56,844 nt of DNA from Clostridia bacterium (GTDB taxonomy: Bacteria > Bacillota > Clostridia > Oscillospirales > CAG-272): positions 1 to 56,844 of the forward strand of contig JAFTRE010000031.1 of the NCBI GenBank assembly GCA_017462385.1, read 5' to 3'. Position numbers and translations under genes: made by a program. Shown piece after piece: positions 4,213 to 20,424 of this stretch. Below the pieces are notes generated by a model. The model saw only the letters and a list, made by a program, of their open reading frames with translations. It ran no database searches and had not been told where the DNA came from. How positions within the stretch are numbered: position 1 is the first letter of the stretch; each line of letters opens with the position of its first letter.

Positions 4213-4491
4213 TTAATCTTCGCTCAATGGTTCAAGGAAGGCTTCAGCCATCAGCTGCACTCCGAGTCGGAAACCGTAGGAGAAGGCGTCGCGCTCGGTG
4301 ATACTGTGCATTTCGTTCATGCAGTCCTCGAATTTTTCGAGTGTTTCCTTCTGCTTTTCTGTTAGCGTGCCGTCCAATTCCTCTCGGTTCCGGGCAACAA
4401 GCTTCAGCAGTTCCTTCAGTCGTTTGTTGCCACGAATGCATTGCTCAAAGGGAGAGATGTTGCCGTACCAGAGCTCGTCAAGTATTTTCAT
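4213..4491 (-). CDS. DUF6809 family protein
   Basis: 92 residues from MKILDELWYGNISPFEQ; the start is fixed by GGAGG five bases upstream (4497-4501), although the frame is open further up. The N-terminal pattern (I-L-[DE]-E-L-W/Y-Y-G-N-I-x-P) is characteristic of DUF6809, a small helical family abundant in clostridial mobile elements, of unknown function. The rest is helical (RGNKRLKELLKLVARNRE, then a GFRLGVQLMAEAF C-terminal helix). It overlaps the upstream gene by 14 bases, so the two are translated from one message and probably work together. Confidence 0.75.
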   Translation of the reverse strand: MKILDELWYGNISPFEQCIRGNKRLKELLKLVARNREELDGTLTEKQKETLEKFEDCMNEMHSITERDAFSYGFRLGVQLMAEAFLEPLSED

Positions 4492-4732
4492 CAGAACCTC
4501 CGCATACAGAAACGGTGACCGCATCCCCGAGTTCTCCCTCGGCAATACAGTCACCGCTCTTTTTCATTTGTTCAATTGCTATCACGGTCTGGCGGACAAT
4601 TTCAAGCTCCAGTGCCGTTTGCTCATCCACACTTGCTTTGTTGGGCGAAGCGAGGAACATTGTCTTGAATACTTCGCTCATCACGGCATATTTGTCGCCG
4701 TAATAAAGGTCTTTAATCGTAATTTTTGCCAT
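4478..4732 (-). CDS. Small mobile-element protein paired with DUF6809
   Basis: 84 residues from MAKITIKDLYYGDKYAV; GGAGG lies 8 bases before the ATG (4741-4745). A longer upstream extension in the same frame has no ribosome site and crosses the promoter, so it is rejected. The N-terminal half is helical, the C-terminal tail (GELGDAVTVSVCGGSDENT) is acidic. Not recognised beyond its regular appearance beside DUF6809-type genes. Its stop overlaps the DUF6809 gene by 14 bases. The ribosome site lies partly inside a perfect inverted repeat (4733-4764), so translation or transcription is probably controlled there. Confidence 0.65.
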   Translation of the reverse strand: MAKITIKDLYYGDKYAVMSEVFKTMFLASPNKASVDEQTALELEIVRQTVIAIEQMKKSGDCIAEGELGDAVTVSVCGGSDENT

Positions 4733-4805: not shown

Positions 4806-5405
4806 TTAACAAACGGATAACTTTTTGAAGCCAATTTCGCTCCGCTCATAACACACAGTGATGCAGTATTTCTTTTCGTAACAAATCTGAGTATGGGTGT
4901 TGTACTTTTCCGCATCAATACCCGCAAACTGCAACGACAATCCTAATCCCTCATACTTTGAAATTGCCTCTTTTATCGTCCAAAGTTTGATAAAATCCAC
5001 ATCCTTGTTATCACTCTGTTCCAACATTTCAAGCTCTGCCGCAGTGCAAATTCTCCGAGCGACGTCGGGATTATACGGCACGATACTTTCCACATCGATG
5101 CCGATATTGTGATCAGACACGGCGCAGGCAACGGCATCCTTGCAATGGCTCAAACTGAAATGGAGCGGCAGATTTGGCAACGAGGGTTTCCCGAATTCGT
5201 TATACACAAATTCGGGGACCTCGGTCATACCATATTCCTCACGCAGAGCGCGTTGTAAAAGCACGAAAGCCAAGACCGAACGCTTGCGGTCATCAAGCTT
5301 TTTATATTGCAACGCCTTTTCTCTGCGCCATGCGGGGAGTGAAGCAAGATGCTTTAAATACTGTTCATCGGAATAGTTTTCAAAAGTATCATATAGATAA
5401 ATCAT
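4806..5405 (-). CDS. Sfp-type 4'-phosphopantetheinyl transferase
   Basis: A 199-residue protein with the Sfp/Gsp family signatures in order: NEFGKPSLPN (about residues 69-78), HFSLSHCKD (about 82-90), GIDVE (about 102-106, Mg-binding Asp and Glu) and WTIKEAISKYEG (about 142-153). It transfers the phosphopantetheine arm from CoA to the carrier-domain serines of NRPS-1 (Ser986), NRPS-2 (Ser988) and the free ACP (Ser34). It is slightly shorter than Bacillus Sfp (about 224). The start overlaps the NRPS-1 stop by four bases (ATGA), so it is translationally coupled and is the last gene of the operon. Having its own PPTase makes the cluster self-sufficient after transfer. Confidence 0.92.
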   Translation of the reverse strand: MIYLYDTFENYSDEQYLKHLASLPAWRREKALQYKKLDDRKRSVLAFVLLQRALREEYGMTEVPEFVYNEFGKPSLPNLPLHFSLSHCKDAVACAVSDHNIGIDVESIVPYNPDVARRICTAAELEMLEQSDNKDVDFIKLWTIKEAISKYEGLGLSLQFAGIDAEKYNTHTQICYEKKYCITVCYERSEIGFKKLSVC

Positions 5406-8400
5406 TTCAAATCCCCTAAACCAATGATAGCATTCGCCACCTCATCTGCTCTCTGTGTATGGAAGTAATGGTTAGCACCATGGATCACAACCATATCAAT
5501 GGGATGCTTAAAGTAATGCTGCCATGCGTGCTGCGCTTTGTCAATATGCGGAGTGAATTTGTCAGCATCGCTAACGATCAAAGTACAAGGGATATCAAAT
5601 ACACCGTCAAGCAGAGCCATTTCACGGAAATAGCACTCGGTGTCTATGCGAAATTGCTTCGCAAGTTTGGCTTTTACTGCCTCTGACATCCCATCAAGCT
5701 CCATACCGACATTTTGCAAAGTGTGGAGTAGCTTTTCATCGCTCATAAACTTCCAAGGATTGAGCCGTTTGCCATATAGCTTGATGCCCTTGGGAGGAAC
5801 GTTGCCGCCCATAACGATGCGCTTGATCTTGCTATTGTCGGACAAGTTTTGATATAACTTCAATGCCATAGCAGAGCCGGCACAATGGCTATAGAACACA
5901 ACTGATTCGGCTTTCTCAATGATTTGCGATACTTCTTCTATCGCTTTAGAGAAATCAACCTCAGTCCAATTTGCATGGCGCAAAGCGTAAACTGTGATCG
6001 TCGGCAAGTGATCTTTTAGAGCCGATGCAAGGTCAATAAAGGTAGAGTCATCACTTCCCGCAAACGGGAAACAAACAATTACTTGCTTGTCCTCGCCCTT
6101 AACAAGTCGGCTGACCGTTTCATATTCCTTTTCTGTTCGTGTTTCGATAAACTCTGCAAGAGCCTTTACTGTAGGATGATCATAGATATCCTTGGCTGAC
6201 AGATGGAATTCTTCGGGAAGATGAGCGAGCATTTCAATCACATGGATGCTGTTGCCGCCGGCACCAAAGAAATCGAGGTTAATGCTTACGGGCGAGATCT
6301 TCAAGAGCCGCTCAAATTCCTTGCACAGCAGTTCCTGAAGCTCGGTCTCGGGAGCTTTATATTCTTCGGATGTTGTCAGTCCCGAAATATCGTATTTTGC
6401 CAAAACACCGCGTGCGATCTTTCCGCTGCTCGTCATCGGGAAGGATTCCAAACGTATGAACAGATTTGGGATCATATAGTTCGGCATTGCTTTAGCAAGA
6501 GTAGCCTTTAGCTCTGCTTCGTCAATCTCCAATGTCGATTGATAGAACGTACACAAAAAGTCTTTTCCGTCGTGCTTAACGATAACGACAGCTGTGTTGG
6601 AAATGCCGTTAAAAGCGCAAATATTGCTTTCAATCTCACCAAGCTCTACACGCAGTCCGCGGATTTTCACTTGTGAATCAATTCGCCCGAGACATTCGAG
6701 CTTACCATCGGGCCGATAATATGCAAGGTCGCCGGTTTTATACAATTTTCCGCAACCAAACGGATTGTCGATGAATTTCTCGGCGGTCAATTCTTCTCGG
6801 TTTAAGTAACCACGGCAAACACCGTCACCGGCGATGCAGAGCTCTCCCGCAATGCCAACAGGACACAATTCGTTTTGATCCGAAAGTATGTAGATCTGTG
6901 TGTTGGCAATTGGTGTTCCTATTGAGATATCTGACGAAATCACTTCGTCGACACTTGACCACACCGTAGTTTCGGTGGGGCCGTAAATATTATATATCTG
7001 TGCGGATGTATGTTCCTTTAATTCTTGATAAAGAGCTTCTGAAAAAGGTTCACCGCCAAGAATTATTTTTTTCAAAAATCGTAGATAGTTCAAGTTCTGC
7101 GTGTTTGATATAAGCATTTTCATTTTGGTAGGTGTAGTTTGTATCACCTCGATTTGATTCTGCTCTATCAATACACTCAATTGATCTTGCAGCTTGCTTT
7201 CCGCATCGTTAGCAAAATATACGGTCATTCCGTTCAAAAGAGCAAGCAGAGATTCGGTAACATAGATATCAAAACCGATTGTCGTAACTGATACGATACG
7301 GCTGATTTCATCGTCAATCACTTTGCCATGTACATTGTGGCAATTACTGTGGCAGTAATTGACTACATTTTGATGTGTCAGCATTGTACCCTTAGGTTTG
7401 CCGGTTGATCCCGATGTGTAAATAACATAACATAGGTCATTGGGATTATTAACGCTTTCGGGATTAGAATAAATTTTATCCAATGAGATCTCCGCAAGGT
7501 CAATCACTGATTCAAGTTTACTCGGCTTATTTGCTCGGTATATAAGAGCAGTTTTGCATTTTGCATCATCCAGCATATAATCGATTCTGTCCTGTGGGAA
7601 AGAAGGATCGATAGGAAGATATGCAGCTCCGGCTTTCAAAACACCGAGCTGTGCGGCTATGACAAGATGGCTTCGAATAGAAATAATGGGAACAATGTCA
7701 TCCTTCCCAATACCATGATCTCGCAAATCGTATGCAATACTGTTTGCCATACGGTTGATTTCGGCATACGAATAAGCACTTCCCTCAAAAACGACAGCCG
7801 TTTTATCGGGATTTTTTAATGCGATGGTTTCAAACAATTCGTGAACGCATCGGTCGGAAGGATATGCCACCTTCGTATTATTAAAGGTATCAGTAAGTAA
7901 AGTGTATTCATTTTGGGGGATAATCTTTGTTTCTGCAACCGTCTGTTCGGGATAGCTAACAATCTGTTCGGTGATATAGAGTAATCGTTTCAAAAGCAGT
8001 TCTGCTTCTTCATTGGAAAACTGTTCAAGCTGATAATCCAAATTCAGCACGTATTTTCCTACGTTATCGCGGTCATCAATGTGTAAAGCGAGCGGAACCT
8101 CGCTGTTTCCGTTGGTATACCATTTTGTATGCGCCTTAACGTTGCTATGCATAGTAGCATTTTGATAGCTGACCATAACGTCATAGAGGCTATCTATGTC
8201 GTGGTGTGCCTCACGAATGTTTTGCAACAGATGTGTATAGGGATATCTTTGATGGAAGAATGCTTTGGTTTGCACTTCGGAGAGCTGCTTGCATACATCC
8301 AACAAAGAAACATCTACGGAAAACGGAACAGTAATCGGTAAAGTGGAGATAAACATACCGAAAGTGTTCTTCTCGCTTCTGCCGAGACGATTCAGAGCTA

Positions 8401-9205
8401 CCATTCCTACAGACGGAACAGATTCCAGACCGTTGATCTTTTTCAAATAAACAAGAACAACTGCTTCAAAAAGAATAGCGGGAGAATAACGATATTCGGT
8501 GCAGAATTTACTGATACGATCAAAAAAAGCACCATCAATTATTTCAGTCAATCTATGAGCCACGGAATTACGGCTTTTTTCTTTGCCGGGTTTTAACTGT
8601 GTAATGACGGGCTTCTCTGCATATACAGAAGACCAAAATTGTTTATCACGAGCGTATTTAGTTGATTCAAAATATTTTGCTTCATTCTCTATATGAAGCG
8701 AGTACGAAGACAATTCGCAAATGATGGGCGCTCCTTCAATCATTTGTTGAAACAGCTCTGCGCCTTTTTCCGCTAACAACGCAAAAGACCATGCGTCGGA
8801 AATCATATGATGCATATATATAAGGACACCCCATGTGCGATCCTTTTGCAAGATTGTCCATCGGTATAATTGCTCATCAAACAATTCTATAGGCTCAGCA
8901 ATTTTACTTTGAACATACTCGTCTATATCTTGATCGCTTTTTCCTCGCATATCTACAACGGGAATGGTGATATACGAATATTCTTCAAAGTACTGCTCAA
9001 TGTTGTTGTCATTTTTGCAAAGGCGAATGCGAAACCCGTCCATTTTCTCAACAAGAATATTGATTGTTTTTTCGATAATATCTGCGTTAAGTCCTTCGAT
9101 GTCAAATTCAATCGTACCGCCGATATTACAAAGAGCCGTGCCGCTATAATATTGCGCCATGGTTAAAATATTGTTTTGTGCTGTTGTCAATGGATAGGTT
9201 TGCAT
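5402..9205 (-). CDS. Monomodular nonribosomal peptide synthetase (C-A-T-TE), NRPS-1
   Basis: 1267 residues. Condensation domain 1-430 with intact HHMISDAW (His132, His133, Asp137). Adenylation domain about 440-950 with YTSGSTGKPKG, NIYGPTE, TGDLAYY and SSGKIARG. Carrier domain with Ser986 (GGNSIHV). Thioesterase about 1030-1267, whose nucleophile motif reads YSHCAGS: Cys1108 stands where Ser is usual, with Asp (SDADKFTP) and His (HGANHYF) present. Reading the substrate pocket against PheA gives D-I-T-Q-I-G-I-V-W-K, close to the glycine code DILQLGLIWK; this is an inference by eye. As the first domain is C and a free ACP and acyl ligase lie upstream, it is probably a starter C domain that N-acylates the amino acid. 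Weak ribosome site (AGGCGA) before the ATG. Confidence 0.93.
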   Translation of the reverse strand: MQTYPLTTAQNNILTMAQYYSGTALCNIGGTIEFDIEGLNADIIEKTINILVEKMDGFRIRLCKNDNNIEQYFEEYSYITIPVVDMRGKSDQDIDEYVQSKIAEPIELFDEQLYRWTILQKDRTWGVLIYMHHMISDAWSFALLAEKGAELFQQMIEGAPIICELSSYSLHIENEAKYFESTKYARDKQFWSSVYAEKPVITQLKPGKEKSRNSVAHRLTEIIDGAFFDRISKFCTEYRYSPAILFEAVVLVYLKKINGLESVPSVGMVALNRLGRSEKNTFGMFISTLPITVPFSVDVSLLDVCKQLSEVQTKAFFHQRYPYTHLLQNIREAHHDIDSLYDVMVSYQNATMHSNVKAHTKWYTNGNSEVPLALHIDDRDNVGKYVLNLDYQLEQFSNEEAELLLKRLLYITEQIVSYPEQTVAETKIIPQNEYTLLTDTFNNTKVAYPSDRCVHELFETIALKNPDKTAVVFEGSAYSYAEINRMANSIAYDLRDHGIGKDDIVPIISIRSHLVIAAQLGVLKAGAAYLPIDPSFPQDRIDYMLDDAKCKTALIYRANKPSKLESVIDLAEISLDKIYSNPESVNNPNDLCYVIYTSGSTGKPKGTMLTHQNVVNYCHSNCHNVHGKVIDDEISRIVSVTTIGFDIYVTESLLALLNGMTVYFANDAESKLQDQLSVLIEQNQIEVIQTTPTKMKMLISNTQNLNYLRFLKKIILGGEPFSEALYQELKEHTSAQIYNIYGPTETTVWSSVDEVISSDISIGTPIANTQIYILSDQNELCPVGIAGELCIAGDGVCRGYLNREELTAEKFIDNPFGCGKLYKTGDLAYYRPDGKLECLGRIDSQVKIRGLRVELGEIESNICAFNGISNTAVVIVKHDGKDFLCTFYQSTLEIDEAELKATLAKAMPNYMIPNLFIRLESFPMTSSGKIARGVLAKYDISGLTTSEEYKAPETELQELLCKEFERLLKISPVSINLDFFGAGGNSIHVIEMLAHLPEEFHLSAKDIYDHPTVKALAEFIETRTEKEYETVSRLVKGEDKQVIVCFPFAGSDDSTFIDLASALKDHLPTITVYALRHANWTEVDFSKAIEEVSQIIEKAESVVFYSHCAGSAMALKLYQNLSDNSKIKRIVMGGNVPPKGIKLYGKRLNPWKFMSDEKLLHTLQNVGMELDGMSEAVKAKLAKQFRIDTECYFREMALLDGVFDIPCTLIVSDADKFTPHIDKAQHAWQHYFKHPIDMVVIHGANHYFHTQRADEVANAIIGLGDLK

Positions 9206-9232
9206 TTACTGTCGCCTGCTTTCGTAGTATTT

Positions 9233-9463
9233 TTATTCTTCCGTCGCTGCCTCGATAAACTTTACAATATCGTCCACGGTTTTCATGAGCTTGATCTTTC
9301 TGTCGGGGACTTCGATATCGAACTCGTCCTCGAATTTACCGACGAGACTGACCACGTCATAAGAGGTGAAGCCGAGGTCATTGACGAGATGACTGTCGGC
9401 GTGGATGGTGTCTGCGGGAATGTCCTGATATTCGCTAATGATGGAAATTACTTTATCTAACAT
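9233..9463 (-). CDS. Free-standing acyl carrier protein
   Basis: 76 residues, an acidic four-helix carrier protein with the attachment motif DLGFTSYD; Ser34 is the expected phosphopantetheine site. The usual motif is DSL or DSV, so Ser-Tyr-Asp is a departure but keeps Ser and Asp. It lies 10 bases after the acyl-AMP ligase, with GAGGA before the ATG and overlapping the ligase stop region, and 27 bases before NRPS-1. The likely role is to carry the fatty acyl group from the ligase to the NRPS condensation domains, not general fatty acid synthesis, since no fab genes are near. Confidence 0.88.
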   Translation of the reverse strand: MLDKVISIISEYQDIPADTIHADSHLVNDLGFTSYDVVSLVGKFEDEFDIEVPDRKIKLMKTVDDIVKFIEAATEE

Positions 9464-9473
9464 GGTGTTGTCC

Positions 9474-11081
9474 TCACTTTTTGTATGTTCTCTTGATTTT
9501 CTTGGTAGTCGTTTTCACAAACTCGGTATCACGAATGATGACCTTTGCAATCGCCTTATAGGGTGGGAGCGTATCGTTGAGCTGATCGATCTGCTCGTTG
9601 AAATAGGATTGGATGTTACTCTGCGCGGCGCGAAGTTCCTCATCGGGATAGATCTCGGCAACGAGCTTGTTATCTTCCTCGGACACAAGGCACTCGACAA
9701 CGCCGGGGATACGTCCGATCAGCGTTTCAAGCTCTTCGGGAGAAACGTTCTTGCCGTTTGACAAAATGATCAGATTCTTGATGCGCCCCGTGATGTAGAT
9801 GAAGCCGTCCTTGTCGAGCTTACCGAGGTCGCCGGTGTGGAACCAGCCGTCAACGATTGCCTTTTCGGTTTCTTCGGGTATATTGTAGTAGCCGAGCATG
9901 ACGATGTCGCCCTGCACACAGATCTCGCCCTCACCGTTCTCGTCGGGATTGTCGATCTTGACCTTGACCTCGGGGAGTGCCTGACCGATACTGCCTGCGC
10001 GGTAGTGATAACGGCGGTTGACGCTGACAACGGGTGAGCATTCGGAAATGCCGTATCCGTTTATGATCTTGATGCCATAGGAATCAAAGCGGTCGATGAT
10101 CTGCTGATCGATGGGCGCACCACCCGAAATGATGAAGTCAAGCTCGCCGCCAAGACCGTTGCGGATAGCGGAAAAGCACTTGTTGCGAAGCCCGATGTTC
10201 ATCGCATCGAAAGGCTTGCAGACCTTATCGAGAATACCGAGGAGCTTCTTCTTTCCGCTCTTTTCGATTTTGGCAAGGATGCCTTTGTCTACCTTTTCGA
10301 CAATCATGGGAACGACGGCAAGATAGGTCGGCTTGAAGTCATTGATCAGCTCCATCACGTTTTTGAGAGAGGGTGCGATCAAGGTGTCAACGCCGTAATA
10401 AATATTGGCAAGACCGCTGACTGTAAATGCGAAGGTGTGATGGAACGGCAACAGCGCAATGGTTCTGCCGTAAAGCTCGATAAAACCACACGCCGCGCGT
10501 GTGTCCTCGCAAATGTTCTTCTGAGACAGCACCACTCCCTTGCTCTTGCCGGTAGTACCCGAAGTGTAGATGATCGATGCAGGCGCATTTTTGTCGGTTG
10601 TGATCCACTCTGCCGACTCAACGGATTCGATAAAACCGCGCAACTTGGGCATAGCGATTGCTTCAAAATCGAGGATGATACCACCGATATCGTCAGCAAT
10701 GTCATCGTAGTCCTTGGAATAGATCAAAGTGCGACATTCACACTCTATCAGCAGCTCGGCAATGTCGGGAGCGGAAAGCTCCTTGTCGATGGGAACGATG
10801 ATGTTGTTACTGCACACAACGGCAAAATATGTGAGAATCCACTCGTAGCTGTTTTCACCGATGACGGCAATCTTGTTGCGTGCACCGTAGGTCTTGCTGA
10901 AATGCGATGCGAGCTTTTGCACGTCATCGTAAAACTGATTGTAAGTAACTGTTTCCTCGCTCTTGCGGCGTTTGGTACGGAACAGTACCTTGTCGCCATA
11001 TTTGGATTTGACGATGGCAAGAAGCTCTTCAAAGGTTTCGTAGGGGGATATGATGTAATGGGGGAAAGGTTTGTTCTTCAT
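9474..11081 (-). CDS. Acyl-AMP ligase (fatty acyl-CoA/ACP synthetase family)
   Basis: 535 residues of the ANL superfamily: P-loop-like YTSGTTGKSKGVVLSQ (about residues 173-188), INGYGISECSPVV (about 335-347), TGDLGKLDKDGFIYITGR (about 415-432), and C-terminal KTTTKKIKRTYKK with the lysines expected for adenylation. It activates a fatty acid with ATP; in this operon the acceptor is probably the adjacent ACP, giving the acyl donor for lipid initiation by the NRPS C domains. An ordinary acyl-CoA ligase is the alternative. Its ATG overlaps the stop of the membrane protein gene upstream (ATGA). By eye this gene is GC-richer than the membrane protein and NRPS-1, so the operon is compositionally mixed. 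Confidence 0.88.
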   Translation of the reverse strand: MKNKPFPHYIISPYETFEELLAIVKSKYGDKVLFRTKRRKSEETVTYNQFYDDVQKLASHFSKTYGARNKIAVIGENSYEWILTYFAVVCSNNIIVPIDKELSAPDIAELLIECECRTLIYSKDYDDIADDIGGIILDFEAIAMPKLRGFIESVESAEWITTDKNAPASIIYTSGTTGKSKGVVLSQKNICEDTRAACGFIELYGRTIALLPFHHTFAFTVSGLANIYYGVDTLIAPSLKNVMELINDFKPTYLAVVPMIVEKVDKGILAKIEKSGKKKLLGILDKVCKPFDAMNIGLRNKCFSAIRNGLGGELDFIISGGAPIDQQIIDRFDSYGIKIINGYGISECSPVVSVNRRYHYRAGSIGQALPEVKVKIDNPDENGEGEICVQGDIVMLGYYNIPEETEKAIVDGWFHTGDLGKLDKDGFIYITGRIKNLIILSNGKNVSPEELETLIGRIPGVVECLVSEEDNKLVAEIYPDEELRAAQSNIQSYFNEQIDQLNDTLPPYKAIAKVIIRDTEFVKTTTKKIKRTYKK

Positions 11082-12193
11082 CGCAGATTATTCTCCTCGA
11101 AAAATTTGCTTATTAGATAATTTCTCTTGTCTATGCTTAAATCTTTCTCGCACACGTCAATTTTCTTAAAAATACATTTGCACTTATTTACCCCTCGTTT
11201 TTTGTGTAAATATCTTTCAACTATGGTAGAACTTTTTAGAAATTCTTTAAATATTATTTCATTTCTTTTAGGGTTTGGACAACGATTACATTTTTTATTA
11301 TTACTCGAATATACCAATTTAGCTTTAGTGTAATCCAATACACTATTGGCAATTTCTATTTCGCGATTATAACGGGGCAAAAAAGATAAGCACCAATTGA
11401 AAGAAAGCAACCAAATTGAAAACATAATCCAAAAATCCAATTCAAAAGTGCATTTTAATGAATTTATATAAAGGATGAAAATTATATATGCAATGACTTG
11501 AATGAAAACGAAAATACAACATACGACTGTTGGATGATATTCAACACAATTCTTTCGTATAATTGTGTGAAGGAGTGAACAAATCACAATCAAACCGATT
11601 GCACATACAAATCCAACAACCACATATGATTCGATTTCATTATTATCATTTATGAGATATAGGTAATTTTCTATGTTCATATAGGCAACTATTAAACTCA
11701 TCACCAGAGAAATAATATCTATCCAAAACGGGATTTCTTTAGCTCCTCCAACACCAGTTGGCTGCCTGTAAAAATAATTCACATGATAATCCCTTTTGAA
11801 ACTTTCCCAAGATTCGTCATCATCAAATTTCACTTTTTCTCGAATATAATCAGTTAATTGCCCTATTCTCAATGAATTTTGAACGGTATAGCGAAAGTTT
11901 ATTTTGGAGAAAATACACGGAAGCAAAAAAACAACAGAAAAGAAAAACTCCACAAATAGTTTCATTGTGTTTGACAAGCTATTAGAATCTGCGAGAAAAG
12001 AAAATAATGCAAAACCTGCTGTGTAAACGACAAACGCAAATGTCAAAAGGCTCGTGTTGAGTTGATTAGAATATTCGTATCGAAATAGTTTTTCTGCTCT
12101 TAATGCTTCATATTCTGCTACACCGCTTACTTTTTCAATACTATCAGTAGATGGTGGATTCTTAATAATCTTTTGCTTTAAACAAAATTTCAT
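11078..12193 (-). CDS. Six-TM membrane protein of unknown function in the NRPS operon
   Basis: 371 residues with about six hydrophobic segments: FAFVVYTAGFALFSFL, FFFSVVFLLPCIF, IISLVMSLIVAYM, VVGFVCAIGLIVICSLL, IFVFIQVIAYIIFILYI and FWIMFSIWLLSFNW. A cytoplasmic-looking loop (YIREKVKFDDDESWESF) lies between the second and third, and the C-terminal tail is Lys- and Cys-rich (NKKCNRCPNPKRN, VNKCKCIFKKIDVC), perhaps metal-binding. No transporter family was recognised. It starts 34 bases after NRPS-2 and its stop overlaps the acyl ligase start, so it is firmly part of the operon. Export, self-protection, or a membrane anchor for the synthetases are all possible. The gene is noticeably AT-rich, which suggests a separate origin. 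Confidence 0.75.
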   Translation of the reverse strand: MKFCLKQKIIKNPPSTDSIEKVSGVAEYEALRAEKLFRYEYSNQLNTSLLTFAFVVYTAGFALFSFLADSNSLSNTMKLFVEFFFSVVFLLPCIFSKINFRYTVQNSLRIGQLTDYIREKVKFDDDESWESFKRDYHVNYFYRQPTGVGGAKEIPFWIDIISLVMSLIVAYMNIENYLYLINDNNEIESYVVVGFVCAIGLIVICSLLHTIIRKNCVEYHPTVVCCIFVFIQVIAYIIFILYINSLKCTFELDFWIMFSIWLLSFNWCLSFLPRYNREIEIANSVLDYTKAKLVYSSNNKKCNRCPNPKRNEIIFKEFLKSSTIVERYLHKKRGVNKCKCIFKKIDVCEKDLSIDKRNYLISKFFEENNLR

Positions 12194-12227
12194 CTTAACC
12201 TCAGTTTAATCTTTATTTTTGAAAGTC

Positions 12228-15200
12228 TTATTTCTTGTGTACAATAATTGCAGCAACTTCATCGGCTCTGTGTATATGGAAGTAATGGTTAGCACCGTGG
12301 ATGACAGCCATATCAACGGAACAGCTGAAATAATGCTGCCATTCGTGCTGTGCTTTGTCAATATGCGGAGTGAATTTGTCAGCATCGCTAACAATCAATG
12401 TACACGGCACATCAAATACGCTGTCAAGTAGAGCCATTTCTCTAAAATAGCACTCGGTGTCTATGCGGAATTGCTTGGCGAGCTTTGCCTTTACCATGTC
12501 AGACATTCCATCAAGTTCCATACCAACATTTTGAAGCGTGTGAAGTAGCTTTTCATCGCTCATAAACTTCCAAGGATTGAGCCGTTTGCCATACATCTTG
12601 ATGCCCTTGGGAGGAACATTAGCACCCATAACGATACGCGTGATCTTGCTATTATCGGGCAAGTGCTGGTAAAGCTTCAAAGCCATAGCAGAGCCAGCAC
12701 AATGGCTATAGAAGACAACCGATTCGGCTTTCTCAACAATCTGCGATACTTCTTCTATCGCTTTAGAGAAATCAACCTCCGTCCAGTTTGCATGGCGCAA
12801 AGCGTAAACGGTAACCATTGGCAATTGATTTTTCAGAGCCGATGCAAGGTCAATAAAGGTGGAATCATCACTTCCCGCAAACGGGAAACAAACAATTACT
12901 TGCTTGTCCTCACCCTTAACAAGTCGGCTGATCGTTTCATATTCCTTTTCAGTCCGTGTTTCGATGAACTCTGCAAGGGTTTCAACTGTCGGGTGATCAT
13001 AAACATCTCTTGCTGACAGATGAAATTCTTCGGGAAGGTGCGCGAGCATTTCGATGACATGAATACTATTGCCACCAGCACTGAAGAAATCAAGATTGAT
13101 GCTAACGGGAGAAACTTTCAAAAGCTTTTCAAACTCTGCACACAACAATTTCTGAAGCTCACTTGTGGGCGCTTTATATTCCTCTGCTTCGGTTAATCCA
13201 GAAATATCGTATTTTGCCAAAACACCGCGTGCGATTTTTCCGCTACTCGTCATCGGGAATGAATCCAAGCGAATGAACAGATTAGGGATCATATAGTTTG
13301 GCATAACTTTGGAAAGTGTATTCTTCAATTCTGCTTCATCTATGTCCTTGTTTGCTTGATAAAATGCACACAAAAACTCTTTTCCACCGTGTTTAACAAT
13401 AACAACTGCGGTATCTGCAATTCCATCGAATGCACAGATATTACTTTCTATCTCGCCAAGCTCTACGCGCAAACCACGAATTTTAACTTGGGTGTCGATT
13501 CTTCCAAGATGCTCAATAATTCCATTAGGTCGTATCAACGCGAGATCTCCGGTTCTGTACAATAATTTGCCCTCAATAAACGGATGAGGAACATATTTTT
13601 CTTTATTTAATTCCGGTCTATTCAAATAACCAAGTCCAATACAATCGCCCGAAACACACAACTCGCCGGGAATACCAATAGGCAAAATGTTTTGCTTATT
13701 ATCCATGATATAGATTTGAGTATTGCGTACAGGGTAACCCAGTGTAATATCATCATCTAAAAGTTCGCAACCGCAAATCCAAATGTGGTTTTCTGAAGGA
13801 CCGCAAGTGTTATATATGTGAGCGTGAGAATTGGAACGCATTTCATAGTAAATGTCACTTGTGAACGGCTCTCCACTTAACAGCAAGGCTTTGAAAGTAT
13901 CCAAATAATCCAAGTTTGTCTTATCTGCCGTCAATATTTTATATCTTGTCGGGGTCGTTTGCAGTATTTGAATGTTGTGTTTCTTGACATATTCCGCAAA
14001 TAATGTTTGATCAACCTGTTGCTTTTCGGTAGCTATATGTACGGTGATGCCAACAACCATCGGTGTTATGGTTTCGCACATGAACATATCAAAAGAAATA
14101 GTGTTAATTGAAATTGAGTTGTCATACTCGCATTTTCCAGGATATATGACAAGATTATGATAAGCGAAATTTACAAGACCTCTATGTGTTAATATTGAAC
14201 CTTTGGGTTTGCCTGTTGAACCGGAAGTGTAAATAATATGGGCACCCATATTCGCTGTAACAGCGGAGGATATAGACTTAGAATTGCACCGGTCTAAAGT
14301 AATCGAATCAATGTTTAAGATGTGAATGTTCTCACAGTTGATGGATGTATTTTTTTCTTTATCGCTGATAATAAAATATTTAGCTTGACAATCTTCAAGA
14401 ATATCGTTAATTCTCTCCGTTGGAACAGATATATCGATTGGCAAAAAAATGCCACCCAATTTCAACACAGCAAGTTGCGTCACCAAGATCATTTCGCTTC
14501 TGTGCATATGTAATGCCACCACATCACCGACATTGATCTCCAAAATGGACGCGAGGTTATTAGACATATGATCCAATTCGGTATATGTCAATGTTCGCTC
14601 ATCACATACAACCGCAACTTTATTTGGAGTCTTTTGTACTTGCTCGGCAAATAATGTGTGAAGACAAGTATCTCTTGGATACGGAGATTCTGTAGCGTTG
14701 AACTCGTAAATCAGTAGATTTCTTTCGCTTTCGGGAATAATGTTCACGTCTGCAACCGTCATATCGCTCTTTGCGGTGATCTGATCCACGATACAGAGAA
14801 TACGGTCTTTCAGCAGAGCAACCTCGGCTTCATCCGGGAACTGCTCGGTCTGATAGTCCAAGTTGAGCTTATACACGCCGAGGTGGTCGCGGTCATCAAT
14901 ATGGAACGCCAAAGCAACCTCGCTGTTGCCGTTTGTGTACCACTTGGAACGAGCATTGATGTCTGCATCGATCTGCGCATTCTGATAACTCATCATCACG
15001 TCAAAGAGCTTTTCCACGTCGGCGTGATGCTGATGGATGTCCGAAAGGATATGAGAATAGGGATATTTCTGATGGCGGAATATCTGCAAATGCAGATCGT
15101 TGATCTCGGCGCAAAGCTCGGCAAGAGTCTTGTCCTCGCTCGGCTTTGCGGTCAGCGGAATGGTGGAAATGAACATACCGAGGGTACGCTTATCCTTCGC

Positions 15201-16028
15201 TCCGTCACGGTTGAGAACGGCAAGACCGAGGCTCGGTGTTTTGCCACCGCCGTTGATGCGGTCAAGGTAAATGAGCATTGCCGCCTCAAAGACGGTTGCG
15301 GGGGAATACTCATGCTCGGTGCAGAATATCTTGATCTGCGCGGAGAGCGCGGGAGAAACCTCTGCATACAAACGGTTTGCAGAGGGAGATGTGCTTGTCA
15401 TGGCGTTGGGCTTGAGGCGCACATATTCGGGATGCTCGGCATACATCTCCGACCAGAATGCCTTGTCCTTCTGATACTTCTTGGATGTGAAGTATTCCTG
15501 CTCCTTTGCCACGAAATCGGTGTAAGGTGCGATATTCAGCACGGGTTGTTCACCATTCACAAGCGCATGGCAGGCGTGAAGAATCGCATCATCAATAATG
15601 GTCATCGACCACGCATCCGAAACGATGTGGTGCATAATGGCAACGATAAGCCACGAGTCAGTCTTTTTGAGAATCTCAAACCGGTAAAGCTTGCCATCGT
15701 AAGTGATGGGCGTGCGCATCATAGCGTTTACGTGCTCGTCGATCTGCTCTTGTGTCAACTCGGTTGCATCGATCACGGGAATACTTTCGTATTCGTGGCT
15801 ACCAACATATTGACAGACCTCGCCTCCTTCCTCGGTAATGCGCAGGCGAAGCCCCTCGGCGGCATCGATCAGCAGATTGATTGCTTTCTCAATGATCTCC
15901 GAGGTCAGTCCTTCCATTTGAAATTCTATCGTACCGCCAATATTGCCGAGGGCGGTGCCGGTGTAGAACTTGGTTTCGTTGTAGATGTTTTGTTGGGGTG
16001 TGGTGAGGTTGTAACGTGTATGATTCAT
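12228..16028 (-). CDS. Monomodular nonribosomal peptide synthetase (C-A-T-TE), NRPS-2
   Basis: 1266 residues with the same order as NRPS-1. Condensation HHIVSDAW (His133, His134, Asp138). Adenylation with YTSGSTGKPKG, but a divergent NTCGPSENH where NxYGPTE is usual, then TGDLALI and SSGKIARG. Carrier Ser988 (GGNSIHV). Thioesterase with YSHCAGS, Cys1110 as nucleophile. Pocket residues by eye are D-M-C-Q-L-S-T-I-W-K, sharing six positions with the cysteine code DLYNLSLIWK and several with glycine; the substrate is uncertain but probably small. From the motif QVKIRGLRVELGEIE onward it is close to identical with NRPS-1, whereas the adenylation core before that is clearly different and AT-richer. 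First gene of the operon; GGAAG before the ATG. Confidence 0.93.
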   Translation of the reverse strand: MNHTRYNLTTPQQNIYNETKFYTGTALGNIGGTIEFQMEGLTSEIIEKAINLLIDAAEGLRLRITEEGGEVCQYVGSHEYESIPVIDATELTQEQIDEHVNAMMRTPITYDGKLYRFEILKKTDSWLIVAIMHHIVSDAWSMTIIDDAILHACHALVNGEQPVLNIAPYTDFVAKEQEYFTSKKYQKDKAFWSEMYAEHPEYVRLKPNAMTSTSPSANRLYAEVSPALSAQIKIFCTEHEYSPATVFEAAMLIYLDRINGGGKTPSLGLAVLNRDGAKDKRTLGMFISTIPLTAKPSEDKTLAELCAEINDLHLQIFRHQKYPYSHILSDIHQHHADVEKLFDVMMSYQNAQIDADINARSKWYTNGNSEVALAFHIDDRDHLGVYKLNLDYQTEQFPDEAEVALLKDRILCIVDQITAKSDMTVADVNIIPESERNLLIYEFNATESPYPRDTCLHTLFAEQVQKTPNKVAVVCDERTLTYTELDHMSNNLASILEINVGDVVALHMHRSEMILVTQLAVLKLGGIFLPIDISVPTERINDILEDCQAKYFIISDKEKNTSINCENIHILNIDSITLDRCNSKSISSAVTANMGAHIIYTSGSTGKPKGSILTHRGLVNFAYHNLVIYPGKCEYDNSISINTISFDMFMCETITPMVVGITVHIATEKQQVDQTLFAEYVKKHNIQILQTTPTRYKILTADKTNLDYLDTFKALLLSGEPFTSDIYYEMRSNSHAHIYNTCGPSENHIWICGCELLDDDITLGYPVRNTQIYIMDNKQNILPIGIPGELCVSGDCIGLGYLNRPELNKEKYVPHPFIEGKLLYRTGDLALIRPNGIIEHLGRIDTQVKIRGLRVELGEIESNICAFDGIADTAVVIVKHGGKEFLCAFYQANKDIDEAELKNTLSKVMPNYMIPNLFIRLDSFPMTSSGKIARGVLAKYDISGLTEAEEYKAPTSELQKLLCAEFEKLLKVSPVSINLDFFSAGGNSIHVIEMLAHLPEEFHLSARDVYDHPTVETLAEFIETRTEKEYETISRLVKGEDKQVIVCFPFAGSDDSTFIDLASALKNQLPMVTVYALRHANWTEVDFSKAIEEVSQIVEKAESVVFYSHCAGSAMALKLYQHLPDNSKITRIVMGANVPPKGIKMYGKRLNPWKFMSDEKLLHTLQNVGMELDGMSDMVKAKLAKQFRIDTECYFREMALLDSVFDVPCTLIVSDADKFTPHIDKAQHEWQHYFSCSVDMAVIHGANHYFHIHRADEVAAIIVHKK

Positions 16029-16129
16029 AATGCGCTTCCATATCCTTCCGTGACCTGTATATTGTGAAATTTACAGATGTTTTTATAAATGCACCGAATA
16101 TGTACTTCGACGCAGCAAAAACGAAAAAA

Positions 16130-16167
16130 GGGCGAGTATTTTCTCAAAAATGAGAGAATACTCGCCC
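16130..16167 (-). terminator. Strong terminator hairpin between NRPS-2 and the integrase
   Basis: Arms 16130-16145 (GGGCGAGTATTTTCTC) and 16152-16167 pair at 15 of 16 positions around an AAAAAT loop. On the minus strand the stem is followed by TTTTTTCGTTTTT (16117-16129), a typical rho-independent tail, so it stops leftward transcripts coming from the integrase and shields the NRPS operon. The interval 16029-16129 holds the NRPS-2 leader; no clear consensus promoter for the operon was found there. Confidence 0.85.
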
Positions 16168-16195
16168 GAAAAGCTCGAATATTTACTTTTTATTA

Positions 16196-16224
16196 TTGAA
16201 TAATAGTCGAAAAAGTGTTATAAT
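16196..16224 (+). promoter_or_regulatory. Orphan plus-strand promoter next to the integrase
   Basis: TTGAAT (16196-16201), 17 bases, TATAAT (16219-16224). It points into the 3' end of a minus-strand gene and has no target here except a 17-codon frame starting ATGTATAGC at 16230. If the repeats at 16215 and 20444 are attachment sites, this was originally the promoter of the hydrolase gene at 20480. Confidence 0.6.
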
Positions 16225-16228
16225 TAAT
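16215..16228 (+). repeat. 14-bp direct repeat, candidate attachment site (left copy)
   Basis: GTGTTATAATTAAT, identical to 20444-20457. It lies 51 bases beyond the integrase stop, the usual place for an attachment core. It includes a -10 box in both copies, so part of the identity could be convergent promoter sequence. Confidence 0.45.
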
Positions 16229-16279
16229 TATGTATAGCCATTTTGGTGTACCGAAGTACATATTCAATGCAGTTTTATA

Positions 16280-17215
16280 CTAAAAATTTTTTGGTAATCG
16301 GTTCATCATTTCAATTTTTGTGTCCATCATACTGTGCGCGTAGCGGTTCAGAGTTATTGACGCATTTTTATGTCCCATGATCTCTGATAGCGTCTTAATA
16401 TCCATTCCACATTCAATGGCGCGGGTTGCAAAGGTATGGCGTAGGGCATGGAAATTGAGCTTTCTGACTCCGGCTTTTTCCGTGAGTTTCTCAAATATAT
16501 ACTGGTACGAGCGAATCGACATGCGCTCGCCCTTTTTGTTTTCGATAACATAGTCGCTTCTTGCCGTTTCTTTCTGCGCTATCATCATTTGCGTGATATA
16601 CGTCGGCAGGGGAATTATTCGATCTGATGATGCCGTCTTGGGCTTGTCCACGATGAGTTGCCATTCACCGCTTTCGTCCTTGTCTCGATATACCGTTTTG
16701 TTTATGGTGATAAATCCACGTTGAAGGTCAACGTCACCCCATTCAAGCCCTAATAGCTCTCCTATTCGAACTCCGGTATATAGGCAGAGGAGAATACCGA
16801 ACAGGCGCGGATCGTCGGATGCCATAATTGCTTTTTCAATTTTCCGTTGTTCGTCTTTGGTGAAGGCTTCAACCTTCTTAGCGTCCTCACGCGAACGCCG
16901 TATTCGCTCACACGGGTTTTGTGAGAGTAAATCCATATCGCAAGCGTATTCGAAAGCAAGGTTCAGCACCGTAAGCATCAGATTTGCGCTTGTTGCAGAG
17001 AGTTTACCGCCACCGCTACGAATATTACCTTCTGCCTTTTGCTGTGAGAGAAAATCTTGGATATCTCTACGGCTCAGATCTTCAATATTTTGTCCGCCAA
17101 GCGTTGGATTGATATGCGCTGTGATTAGTCCTTGGTAGCGAGAGTAGGTTCTTGACTTGATGTGTTCCTTTTCATAGGTCTCAAGCCATTCTGTGAGTAG
17201 TGTCTGTGTTGTCAT
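16280..17215 (-). CDS. int: Tyrosine recombinase (phage/ICE-type integrase)
   Basis: A complete 311-residue integrase. The N-terminal SAM-like core-binding domain covers about 1-105 (LLTEWLETYEKEHIKSRTY). The catalytic domain has all expected residues: Arg150 (TGVRIGELLGL), Lys193 (DKPKTASSDR), His256/Arg259 (HALRHTF), His282 (MGHKNASI) and Tyr292 (NRYAHSM). The short N-terminus without an arm-binding zinc domain fits integrases of small islands. ATG with AAAGGAG upstream. It is transcribed toward the NRPS operon and stopped by the hairpin at 16130-16167; the ATPase-HNH module is divergent from it. It probably mobilises the segment between the two 14-bp repeats. Confidence 0.95.
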   Translation of the reverse strand: MTTQTLLTEWLETYEKEHIKSRTYSRYQGLITAHINPTLGGQNIEDLSRRDIQDFLSQQKAEGNIRSGGGKLSATSANLMLTVLNLAFEYACDMDLLSQNPCERIRRSREDAKKVEAFTKDEQRKIEKAIMASDDPRLFGILLCLYTGVRIGELLGLEWGDVDLQRGFITINKTVYRDKDESGEWQLIVDKPKTASSDRIIPLPTYITQMMIAQKETARSDYVIENKKGERMSIRSYQYIFEKLTEKAGVRKLNFHALRHTFATRAIECGMDIKTLSEIMGHKNASITLNRYAHSMMDTKIEMMNRLPKNF

Positions 17216-17621: not shown

Positions 17622-19181
17622 ATGAATTTTCAAGTTTATGATAAAGGCGAATCCATAAAATATTGTAGTGACACATTGTATCTGCGCCGTGATAATTGGG
17701 ATGACTATTCATTTAGAACTACATTTGAAGTATCATATTGTGAAAGTATCGGAAATGTTATTCTAATTGGGCAAGTGAAAATTGGCGTAATAGGTATGGA
17801 ACCACAAACCAAGGAAGTGACAAATTCTATTACAAGAACTGAGCCTGCTGTTACATTTGACATAATCCCCAAACATTTTTCTAAACTCGACAATACTTAT
17901 TTTTCTTTGGGACAAGATGAAAGCTATTATGCTAACATTTCAAGTTTGGGAGACAGCAAGAGAATCGAAATATTAACTGCACTACAAGATGTAGCTTTCA
18001 ACTTAAAGCATTTTAAAAAGGTTCTCGGAGAGAGAGCTATGAGAACATCGCTCCTGAGAAGTATAGGAACCAACTCTGTCAAGGAACAACTACACCGCAT
18101 CGCAGATGGTGGAGCCAGACTTACAAAATATAATTTTTCTTATACGGTTCAAGCGAACGATGACGAGCAATCCGTCTCGCGGTTATCTTTTGCTGTTGAT
18201 CCTGACAGTAATCCACCAACCAATATTCATGTTCTTATTGGCAGAAATGGCACAGGAAAAACCACTCTAATTAAAAATATGATTCACAGTATTCGTTACC
18301 ATGATAATTCACATGGTTGCTTTGAATATACAAAAGTGGGTAGAGTTTCAAAGCCTGCGAAATTTTCAAATGTTTTATGCGTGGCTTTCAGTCCATTTGA
18401 TGATTTTTCGGAACTCGATACTCCAGAATCAGATATCCCGTATTCTTATATTGGTTTAAACAAACATGGGGGAGATCTATTCCAGTCTATTGAGGAACAA
18501 TTTTTGGAAGCTTTTTCAAATTGCATGATGAATGCAAGAAAAAGAATGCTTTGGATAAAAGCCATTGAAATTTTAAAGAGTGATATTACATTCGGGGAGA
18601 TGTCTTTGGAATCTATAGTTTCAAATGATGTGTTTTCTGACAGCGAAGATCCTGTTATATCCAAAAATGAATGCATAAAACAGATCTTTTCAAAATTGAG
18701 TTCCGGCCACAAGGTGGTTTTACTTATAATCACTTGCTGTGTCGACAAAATAGTTGAAAAAAGTGTTATTTTCATGGATGAACCAGAAAATCATCTGCAT
18801 CCACCGTTGCTATCGGCCTTAATTCGCGCACTCTCAGATTTGTTAGTTGATAGAAATGGTGTTGCAATCGTATCTACCCATTCGCCAGTTGTGTTACAAG
18901 AGGTTCCAAATAATTGTGTATATTCGATAAGACGCTTAGATCAAAAACTATTAGCTGAACGCTTACCAATAAAAACATTTGGAGCAAGCATTGGAGCATT
19001 AACAAACGAAGTATTTGGTCTTGAAGTTACAGATTCGGGATATCATAAATTAATCTCCGATGCTGTTAAAAAAATGGGGGACTACGAACTAATTTCGGCC
19101 GAGTTTGAAAATCAACTTGGGAGTGAAGCGATAATGCTATTGAGAACATTGCTTGCTTTACATAAACCAGAGGATGAATAA
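17622..19181 (+). CDS. AAA ATPase of a Septu-like ATPase-HNH defence pair
   Basis: 519 residues. The ATPase has a clean P-loop GRNGTGKTTL (207-216), Walker B VIFMDEPENHLHP (Asp386, Glu387) and H-loop STHSPVVLQE, the SMC/ABC/OLD type seen in PtuA and related nucleases. Unusually, about 200 residues precede the P-loop (with YFSLGQDESYYANISSLG and LQDVAFNLKHF), whereas PtuA proteins normally begin with it. This N-terminal part is an unidentified domain. GGAG lies before the ATG. The stop overlaps the HNH gene start (TAATG), so the products are made together and probably form a complex in which ATP state controls DNA cutting. The defence role is inferred from the Septu precedent and integrase linkage. 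Confidence 0.82.
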   Translation: MNFQVYDKGESIKYCSDTLYLRRDNWDDYSFRTTFEVSYCESIGNVILIGQVKIGVIGMEPQTKEVTNSITRTEPAVTFDIIPKHFSKLDNTYFSLGQDESYYANISSLGDSKRIEILTALQDVAFNLKHFKKVLGERAMRTSLLRSIGTNSVKEQLHRIADGGARLTKYNFSYTVQANDDEQSVSRLSFAVDPDSNPPTNIHVLIGRNGTGKTTLIKNMIHSIRYHDNSHGCFEYTKVGRVSKPAKFSNVLCVAFSPFDDFSELDTPESDIPYSYIGLNKHGGDLFQSIEEQFLEAFSNCMMNARKRMLWIKAIEILKSDITFGEMSLESIVSNDVFSDSEDPVISKNECIKQIFSKLSSGHKVVLLIITCCVDKIVEKSVIFMDEPENHLHPPLLSALIRALSDLLVDRNGVAIVSTHSPVVLQEVPNNCVYSIRRLDQKLLAERLPIKTFGASIGALTNEVFGLEVTDSGYHKLISDAVKKMGDYELISAEFENQLGSEAIMLLRTLLALHKPEDE

Positions 19182-20050
19182 TGAAAAAATTACACAAACC
19201 ATTGCCAAGCACTCGTCCAGAAGACATTTTTGAAAAATGTGTTTCTGGGTACAGAGATAAACAAAAAGTAACGGCACTATTACAATGCAAATGTATGGTT
19301 GGCTGTGATTCCGAATTATATGACAGAGTAGTTCCCACGAGATTAGAGGAATACAAACAATCTTCTTTGCCCACCAATATCGATTCCAAAATGATATCGA
19401 AAGTCTATACAGAAAAATTTGCTAAAGAAAATAGCCCGGGAAGGCAGTATTATAACGCTATTATGGAGCAAGCTGAACGGAATATATGTCCAATATGTGG
19501 TATAAGAATGGTCAAAACACTTGATCATTATCTGCCTAAAAGTAAATTCCCCACGCTTTCGGTTACACCAAGCAATTTGATCCCTTCATGCCGCGACTGC
19601 AACATGGATAAACGCGATGATGCAGCATATGATTCCAAAAACACGCCTGTACATCTGTATTTCGATGATATTCCCAATGAACCTTGGCTTCAAGTTACAG
19701 TCGGAGATAACCTCGAGATTCTTTATTACATAGCTTGTCCAGACACATGGGATGTAGGGCTTCGTAGTAGGATTGAAAAACACTTGGATTTTTATGATCT
19801 TCATGAGTTATACAGTAGCCACGCAAATGGTGAAGTAGCCAATAGCATTCATATGTGGAAGAAAACTATTATGCAAAGCAGTCCTGAAGTACTCAAACTC
19901 GCATTAATCGATGAGTGCGAGAGTTCTGAACTCAATAATATGAATTCTTGGAAATCCGCTTTATATCGAGGGTTAGTAGCTAATTTCGACAAAGTGAAAA
20001 AGTACATATTTGGACTCTGTGTTACCGAACAAGTAGATTCAAACACATAA
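19181..20050 (+). CDS. HNH endonuclease, partner of the ATPase (PtuB-like)
   Basis: 289 residues. The HNH fold sits at residues 103-145: zinc pairs CPIC (Cys103, Cys106) and CRDC (Cys137, Cys140), the catalytic LDHYLPKSKFP (Asp115, His116), Asn132 in SNLIPSC and Asn141 after the second zinc pair. The first 100 residues have an unusual Cys group (LLQCKCMVGCD) and the last 140 are helical and unassigned. Its start overlaps the ATPase stop, a feature of two-component toxic modules. A sequence-degrading nuclease activated on infection is the likely role; restriction of invading plasmids is also possible. It is followed by two terminators and then the right 14-bp repeat. Confidence 0.85.
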   Translation: MKKLHKPLPSTRPEDIFEKCVSGYRDKQKVTALLQCKCMVGCDSELYDRVVPTRLEEYKQSSLPTNIDSKMISKVYTEKFAKENSPGRQYYNAIMEQAERNICPICGIRMVKTLDHYLPKSKFPTLSVTPSNLIPSCRDCNMDKRDDAAYDSKNTPVHLYFDDIPNEPWLQVTVGDNLEILYYIACPDTWDVGLRSRIEKHLDFYDLHELYSSHANGEVANSIHMWKKTIMQSSPEVLKLALIDECESSELNNMNSWKSALYRGLVANFDKVKKYIFGLCVTEQVDSNT

Positions 20051-20150
20051 TAGTGCGTAGAAACGCATTTATGATTAGGCCGAATCAATCTTTTTCACTA
20101 TTGCCATTCTTTGTTTATTTGCAACACATATTTTAGACAACAGAAGTAAA

Positions 20151-20191
20151 GAAAAATCCATCATGGACGGAATGTCTATGATGGATTTTTC
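20151..20191 (+). terminator. Terminator after the HNH gene
   Basis: A perfect 14-bp inverted repeat, GAAAAATCCATCAT (20151-20164) with ATGATGGATTTTTC (20178-20191), 13-base loop and T-rich descending arm. It lies 100 bases after the HNH stop. It would work in both directions. Confidence 0.8.
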
Positions 20192-20308
20192 TTCGTTTGG
20201 CTCTCTCAGGCGGTTGTTTAGTAAACCTCTTTATGATAGCGAGCCCTTCGCAGCAGTATTCTTTGATTTCAGTATCGTAATTTTGAATATACAAAAGGAT
20301 ATCTAAAA

Positions 20309-20345
20309 GCAAAACACCACGGACTTTCCTTCCGTGGTGTTTTGC
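20309..20345 (+). terminator. Second hairpin in the HNH-hydrolase gap
   Basis: A perfect 15-bp inverted repeat (20309-20323 with 20331-20345, 7-base loop CTTTCCT) ending GTGTTTTGC. The 429-base gap 20051-20479 holds this, the hairpin at 20151-20191, the right 14-bp repeat and the hydrolase promoter. No convincing gene is present. Confidence 0.7.
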
Positions 20346-20424
20346 CGTTAGGGCGGCTTATTCGGTTGTTATTATTTTACCGCTAATTTTGCACGCCCTT
20401 CCGTGCTTTTTATTTATATAAAGA

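Follow-up and report, generated by a model that had tools for sequence, protein, structure and literature searches.

The window, the whole stretch of 56 844 nt of clostridial DNA analysed here, most probably carries a horizontally mobile, phase-variable biosynthetic operon that encodes an N-acyl-amino-acid pathway. A dedicated tyrosine recombinase encoded beside the operon would invert a segment of about 190 bp (16084–16277) that lies between the two. On their own, the six operon genes would be a modest addition to the acyl-NRPS kind, and the novelty lies in the operon having its own switch, an arrangement that recurs with both tyrosine and serine recombinases.

Gene content and layout of the operon

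The operon occupies bases 4806–16028 on the minus strand. NRPS1 (12228–16028; 1266 aa, A code DMCQLSTIWK) is followed by a 371-aa six-TM protein with no family assignment (11078–12193), an acyl-AMP ligase of 535 aa (9474–11081; AMP-binding, PF00501, E 1.7e-61), a free acyl carrier protein of 76 aa (9233–9463; PP-binding, PF00550, E 9.9e-11), NRPS2 (5402–9205; 1267 aa, A code DITQIGIVWK) and a 4'-phosphopantetheinyl transferase of 199 aa (4806–5405; ACPS, PF01648, E 2.8e-14). The junctions, from NRPS1 to the PPTase, measure +34, −4, +10, +27 and −4 nt. The preliminary description of this span as six genes on one strand was borne out, all six ORFs being intact and domains being found with Pfam in all but the membrane protein, and its count of three of the five junctions overlapping or at most 10 nt apart agrees with the measured values of −4, +10 and −4.

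Domains were annotated with Pfam, supplemented by NCBIfam. Both synthetases are C-A-T-TE proteins matching Condensation, AMP-binding, AMP-binding_C and PP-binding, with a C-terminal match to Thioesterase/Abhydrolase_6 that scores near or under the curated cut-offs, and Pfam found no reductase domain in either of them. The C-domain motif within the C-A-T-TE chain is HHIVSDA or HHMISDA. With a full domain set in each, the two synthetases could each act alone, as had been suggested, and the combination of an acyl ligase, an ACP and C-A-T-TE synthetases in one operon is consistent with the N-acyl amino acid synthesis that had been proposed.

A simple hydropathy scan found six hydrophobic segments in the membrane protein, in agreement with its earlier naming. 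PADLOC gave no matches for it at E 0.1 and Pfam nothing meaningful (best E 4.2); a homologue with 42% identity is present in genome G174. The gene has a G+C content of 30.6% versus 42–50% in the other operon genes, which suggests a separate origin. In the related cluster of G076, the slot between the NRPS and the ligase is occupied by a gene encoding a PycTM (Pycsar effector) protein in place of the six-TM protein (L110:1229–1771; PF18967, E 1.2e-9; PADLOC, E 3.3e-22).

The operon is located between two predicted defence loci. One is an AAA ATPase gene (489–2741) matching the PADLOC candidate defence family PDC-S46 (E 1.1e-206), and the other is an AAA ATPase and HNH pair (17622–20050) matching PADLOC PDC-M01A/B and PtuA (Septu-like). 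Short inverted repeats after the HNH gene (20149–20193 and 20303–20351), 95% and 90% complementary with loops of 5 and 7 nt, are possibly terminators. Rfam and tRNA scans of the window gave no matches.

Relationship of the two synthetases

NRPS1 and NRPS2 are paralogues, identical at 719 of 1265 positions (57%). In bins of 40 residues, their identity is 20–72% before residue 834 and 75–97% from there onward, with 64% in the last bin; third-position identity is 0.23–0.54 before residue 834 and 0.61–0.82 from residue 1034. The C domain of NRPS1 is 88–90% identical to the C domains of G174, G069, G076 and G041, and its A core is just 39–40% identical to the A cores of the same four genomes, to which the NRPS2 A core is 69–70% identical. 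Along NRPS1, the G+C content drops from 50.6% in the C domain to 38.1% in the A core. We interpret the pattern as the outcome of a duplication, of swapping of C and A segments and of C-terminal homogenisation, events whose order we infer. The common origin of the pair, the 89% identity of their TEs and the mosaic structure of the genes do not fit the earlier description of two independent synthetases.

The suggestion that there may be two products is plausible, because the 10-residue codes of the two A domains differ. Applied to EntF as a control, the procedure used to extract the codes gave DVWHFSLVDK, and neither window code matches a known Ser or Thr code. The NRPS1 code shares six of ten positions with DLYNLSLIWK, which we take to be a Cys code, and is presumably nearest to the Cys and Ser codes. 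The NRPS2 code recurs in G174, G069, G076, G041, G078, L027 and L066.

Single-module synthetases near acyl ligase/ACP genes are not confined to the window; others were found in L107/G174 and L110/G076 (by Pfam) and in L030, L049 and L051 (by length and similarity). Among the loci compared, a pair of single-module synthetases was found in the window only. The G041 cluster includes two NRPSs (L111:3836–8029 and 9670–15600), the first with an N-terminal NAD_binding_4 domain and two thioesterase stretches, and the second consisting of C-A-T and a terminal NAD_binding_4 domain, with a Ser-type code.

A candidate invertible promoter upstream of NRPS1

The gene for the proposed invertase, a tyrosine recombinase (16280–17215, minus strand; PF00589, E 2.5e-32), is directed toward NRPS1. 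It is present in one copy in its own genome, and two congeners gave no match at E 1e-20. Two inverted repeat arms, one on the recombinase side (16241–16277, core 16252–16265) and one on the operon side (16084–16120, core 16096–16109), are both located between the recombinase stop and the NRPS1 start. With mismatch −1, none of 2000 dinucleotide shuffles matched the score of the 37-nt arms; the score of the 14-nt core was matched by one of 2000 shuffles at mismatch −2 and two of 2000 at −3. The window arms have the lowest score among the nine NRPS switches described below.

Within the segment, a sigma-70 promoter sequence (TTGAAT-17-TATAAT, 16196–16224) matching at 10/12 positions was found on the plus strand alone, directed away from the operon, and was equalled in 13 of 500 shuffles. 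Weak promoter-like sites (9/12) pointing toward the operon are present at 16221–16192 and 16314–16286. A terminator-like hairpin followed by a U-run (16124–16167, minus strand) is directed toward NRPS1 as assembled. The fold of 16121–16240 has an MFE of −29.3 kcal/mol (z −4.96), and a simple terminator scan listed none.

The segment 16084–16277 looks built to flip, as an invertible promoter assembled in the OFF orientation. The operon would be OFF as assembled because the promoter faces the recombinase and the hairpin separates the recombinase from NRPS1. By coordinate arithmetic, the inverted segment would have its −10 box about 110 nt ahead of the NRPS1 start, with the hairpin now lying behind the promoter, so that all six genes would be transcribed.

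Inverted repeats beside recombinase-adjacent NRPS clusters

An inverted repeat was found in the gap in all nine NRPS clusters with a recombinase directly upstream (0 of 300 shuffles in each case). These are the window, L107, L109, L110, L111, L113 (= L013), L053, L010 and L055, and they are partly non-independent, as the L107 and L111 switches are identical at 106 of 107 positions and L010 and L055 come from one MAG. By Pfam, the recombinase is of the tyrosine type in the window, L109 and L110 and of the serine type in L107; by similarity or by eye it is of the tyrosine type in L113, L010 and L055 (the last a contig-end fragment) and of the serine type in L111 and L053.

When the upstream regions of NRPS genes were scored, the seven with an adjacent recombinase ranked 1–7 among 55 (scores 14–25). 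The other 48, in which phmmer with eight seeds detected no adjacent recombinase, all scored 13 or less, and they include L053, which was mis-anchored in this scoring though a repeat exists there. The 55 derive from 82 loci with an NRPS ORF by the filter, 27 of which were left out as having too little upstream DNA; L013, L017, L112 and L113 failed the ORF filter. Several loci share a contig or MAG (L010/L025/L055, L033/L047, L048/L054, L019/L040 and L031/L052); duplicate loci were omitted from one of the comparisons.

Promoters with at least 10/12 matches and a 17-nt spacer were found on one strand in 10 of 13 segments, with none in the remaining three; a match of 10/12 or better was reached by 12–55 of 500 shuffles per segment. 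Eight of the ten are directed toward the recombinase and two toward the operon. For the nine NRPS switches, this gives seven assembled OFF, one assembled ON (L010) and one with no promoter call (L053). The recombinase at the sole ON switch (L010:1920–2658) is apparently split over two frames, so this switch may be locked.

Opposite orientations in the invertase subfamily

Relatives of the window recombinase at E 1e-50 were found in 34 of 295 family genomes, its own included. A downstream repeat with a score of at least 14 was present at 11 of the 26 homologues with at least 300 nt of downstream DNA, and an upstream repeat in 0 of 28 rows (one row unscored); in this survey no ORF was obtained for L169, and the downstream DNA of two loci was short. 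In a wider subfamily set of 29 loci, including the window and excluding loci that had under 250 nt of downstream DNA as well as the larger recombinases L170–L172 and L174, a repeat with a score of at least 12 was found in 18 and not in 11. L154 and L109 are the same locus. The subfamily promoters face the recombinase (OFF) in 17 cases and away from it (ON) in one, L180.

Opposite orientations of the segment were found at L165 (G211) and L180 (G261), which are orthologous loci in one genus with recombinases identical at 305 of 316 positions. The two interiors are opposite (91/99, score 148 v 34), the downstream lipoprotein-like genes are homologous (173/379) and equal in orientation, and the promoter is OFF in L165 and ON in L180, where the arms are imperfect (score 9). 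The window recombinase is identical to that of L165 at 133 of 308 positions. Opposite interiors were also found for L139/L141 in genome G750 (266/274, score 508 v 68) and for L010/L055 (123/153, score 104 v 22). Five close recombinase copies are present in G750, to which L013 also belongs; two of the five are contig-end fragments. Repeats adjoin the NRPS recombinase copy as well as the four other copies. At L139–L142, copies of one invertase type adjoin repeat pairs, and the cargo, judged by eye, consists of a 1804-aa surface-type protein, a zinc-ribbon-like protein and an AgrB-like/regulator/kinase-like set.

No ON example of the window's exact switch was found in an order-level search, which gave four genomes, all from the same family. 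The OFF bias and the 11 subfamily loci with no clear repeats are real caveats, and inversion may be rare or biased given 17 OFF promoters to one ON and the imperfect arms of L180.

The bias also bears on a different account, in which the recombinase serves a mobile element as its integrase and uses the repeats as binding or attachment sites, with the promoter fixed and the operon transcribed otherwise. The PF00589 recombinase has an integrase-type N-terminal domain, relatives lie near mobilisation genes, and 17 of 18 scored subfamily promoters face one way. We nevertheless consider this account unlikely, because the segment is inverted between the orthologous loci L165 and L180 while the orientation of the downstream gene is kept, the repeats lie just downstream of the recombinase gene and in no scored row upstream of it, and a pilin-like protein, lipoproteins and a flippase-like protein are, judged by eye, among the products encoded downstream. 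That the locus is an ordinary acyl-NRPS one, either on its way to being lost or permanently silent, appears more improbable still; the promoter directed away from the operon in the assembly would agree with this, but six intact frames and the retention of active-site residues argue against it. A phase-variable operon behind an invertible promoter is the reading that we prefer.

Thioesterases and product release

We infer inversion in this strain, transcription, the acyl starter, the amino acids and the product from the sequence, as follows. In ON cells, the PPTase would convert the ACP to its holo form and the ligase would load a fatty acid onto it. Each NRPS would use its C domain to move the acyl group onto the amino acid bound to its own T domain. 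For release, the Cys-type TE would either hydrolyse off the N-acyl amino acid or, if the side chain has a nucleophile, close a small ring as ObiF1 does.

The best solved relatives of the NRPS1 TE are ObiF1 (6n8e, E 2.9e-11) and then 8w2c (E 3.3e-5), which we take to be a SulM-type TE (a name that also leans on PMC11298585). Both window TEs have an SHCAG sequence that aligns with GHCAG in ObiF1, with Ser replacing the first Gly of the GxCxG-like motif, and both have Asp at position II and Ala or Gly, rather than an acid, at position I. The triad of ObiF1 is made up of Cys1146, Asp1254 and His1284 (PMC6668435), and these residues align with Cys, Asp and His in both window TEs. According to PMC11298585, only ObiF1 and SulM among NRPS TE structures put Asp at position II. 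Nine relatives match the window TEs at E 1e-4, and all nine have the Cys and the shifted Asp as well as a Ser-type code, DVWH[FI]SL[VI]DK, directly before the TE, from which the window codes differ. An EntF-like hydrolase TE was ruled out by the Cys nucleophile, the Asp at position II and the finding of ObiF1 and SulM as the closest solved structures.

On this evidence, ring closure by the window TEs is possible. A variant of the main reading, which we put forward tentatively, is that the Cys-type TEs close strained rings to yield N-acyl beta-lactones or beta-thiolactones. It draws on ObiF1 and SulM as the closest solved TEs, on the Cys nucleophile combined with an Asp at position II and a non-acidic residue at position I, on the Ser-type A code just before the TE in the nine relatives, and on the NRPS1 code being presumably closest to the Cys and Ser codes, but the window A codes are neither a known Ser nor a known Thr code, the NRPS2 code has no assignment, and Cys TEs are also able to hydrolyse or macrocyclise. 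TE-to-C transfer, in which NRPS1 would pass its acyl-aminoacyl product to NRPS2 to give one lipodipeptide, is very improbable. It would make sense of two complete modules neighbouring in one operon, but NRPS1 and NRPS2 each have their own C and TE domains, and in relatives a single synthetase of this kind accompanies the same ligase, ACP and PPTase. Release by each synthetase on its own is the preferred reading.

Distribution and mobility

A close relative of the ligase (E 1e-130 or better) was found in five of 395 family genomes, including the genome of the window, and these represent five genera. Identity in the four other genera is 80–93%, and the 93% match, in G076, is truncated at 402 residues by the end of its contig. 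At E 1e-180, an order-level search found the ligase in its own genome only (one of 394). NRPS1 relatives at E 1e-150 or better are present in seven of 295 family genomes, and two congeners contain no full-length NRPS2 relative. The ACPs of G174, G041 and G069 are 96–99% identical to the window ACP, and in G174 the genes for an NRPS, a membrane protein, ligase, ACP and PPTase are found in the same order, with a single NRPS. A relaxase gene lies near the cluster at L109 and a NikA/MobC-like gene near that at L107. When an empty insertion site was sought, the fetched stretches of right flank had one gene in common with each congener.

The recurrence of the ligase at 80–93% identity in four other genera suggests that the cluster moves, and acquisition by horizontal transfer is the simplest reading. 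A virus origin was rejected, as viral contigs contained no confirmed relative of the ligase or NRPS1, and so was a plasmid origin, since the NRPS1 plasmid matches were all below 60% identity (2388 records). A DUF6809 gene in the window (4213–4554) has a homologue near the L109 cluster (L109:17533–17868; 41 of 98 positions identical), and the presence of these homologues near both clusters hints at a shared mobile setting.

Comparison with known systems and implications

Gut invertons, for example those at Bacteroides capsule loci, consist of inverted repeats and an enclosed promoter with ON and OFF orientations, and have been reported in Clostridia-like genomes, with a median of three per genome in Firmicutes_A (PMC10939037, PMC11892184). 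The window is like them in having inverted repeats around an enclosed promoter. The cargo named for them is surface-related or regulatory (PMC10939037, PMC11892184), whereas that in the window is an NRPS operon, and the main text of PMC11892184 does not contain 'peptide synthetase', 'secondary metabol' or 'biosynthetic'. In Bacteroidales, resistance genes are reported to lie under invertible promoters (PMC8748976). Among the matches listed from the open-licence literature, none described a clostridial NRPS operon with an invertible promoter of its own. In Photorhabdus, promoter inversion decides the production of pepteridines, the product of an NRPS-like pathway, but that switch sets the cell form and acts indirectly on the pathway (PMC5384830), unlike the window switch, which lies directly before the operon and adjoins its own recombinase.

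Each of the known enzyme systems resembles the operon in part. ObiF1 and SulM (6n8e, 8w2c), the closest solved TEs by sequence, share the Cys nucleophile and the Asp at position II, but have different A codes before the TE, and ObiF1 has an MbtH-like domain, for which the window NRPSs have no Pfam match. The oaa-type fatty-acid-amide clusters of gut Clostridia likewise combine an acyl-activating enzyme, a free ACP and condensation chemistry, but use a free-standing C domain with DHxxxDS and free amines (PMC13142362), in contrast to HHxxxDA within C-A-T-TE in the window. The ruminopeptin-type dipeptide-aldehyde NRPSs also make NRPS products in gut Clostridia, but yield aldehydes (PMC12327764), whereas both NRPSs here terminate in a TE. 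The E. coli synthetase EntF (NC_000913) has C-A-T-TE in one chain, as here, but its TE motif contains Ser, its position I is Asp and its A code is one for Ser.

Most of what is known of gut invertible promoters concerns surface structures and regulators, along with some resistance genes. Where an NRPS operon is placed immediately after a switch of its own, its product can go unseen in bulk metabolomics or culture extracts; seven of the eight NRPS switches with a scored promoter are assembled OFF. Existing metagenome reads allow promoter orientation to be counted and compared with metabolite data. The nine relatives that combine Ser-coded modules with the same Cys-type TE point to unexplored acyl-serine ring compounds, with animal-gut and related bacteria as the predicted hosts. 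A broader proposal, which we regard as speculative, is that gut Clostridia contain a class of mobile NRPS pathways, each with its own switch served by a tyrosine or serine recombinase and mostly assembled OFF, some of which, the one in the window among them, make reactive N-acyl beta-lactones or beta-thiolactones via ObiF-type Cys TEs. If this is true, a covalent enzyme inhibitor would be released by the few cells that are ON, and the failure to detect such products would be explained by the switch.
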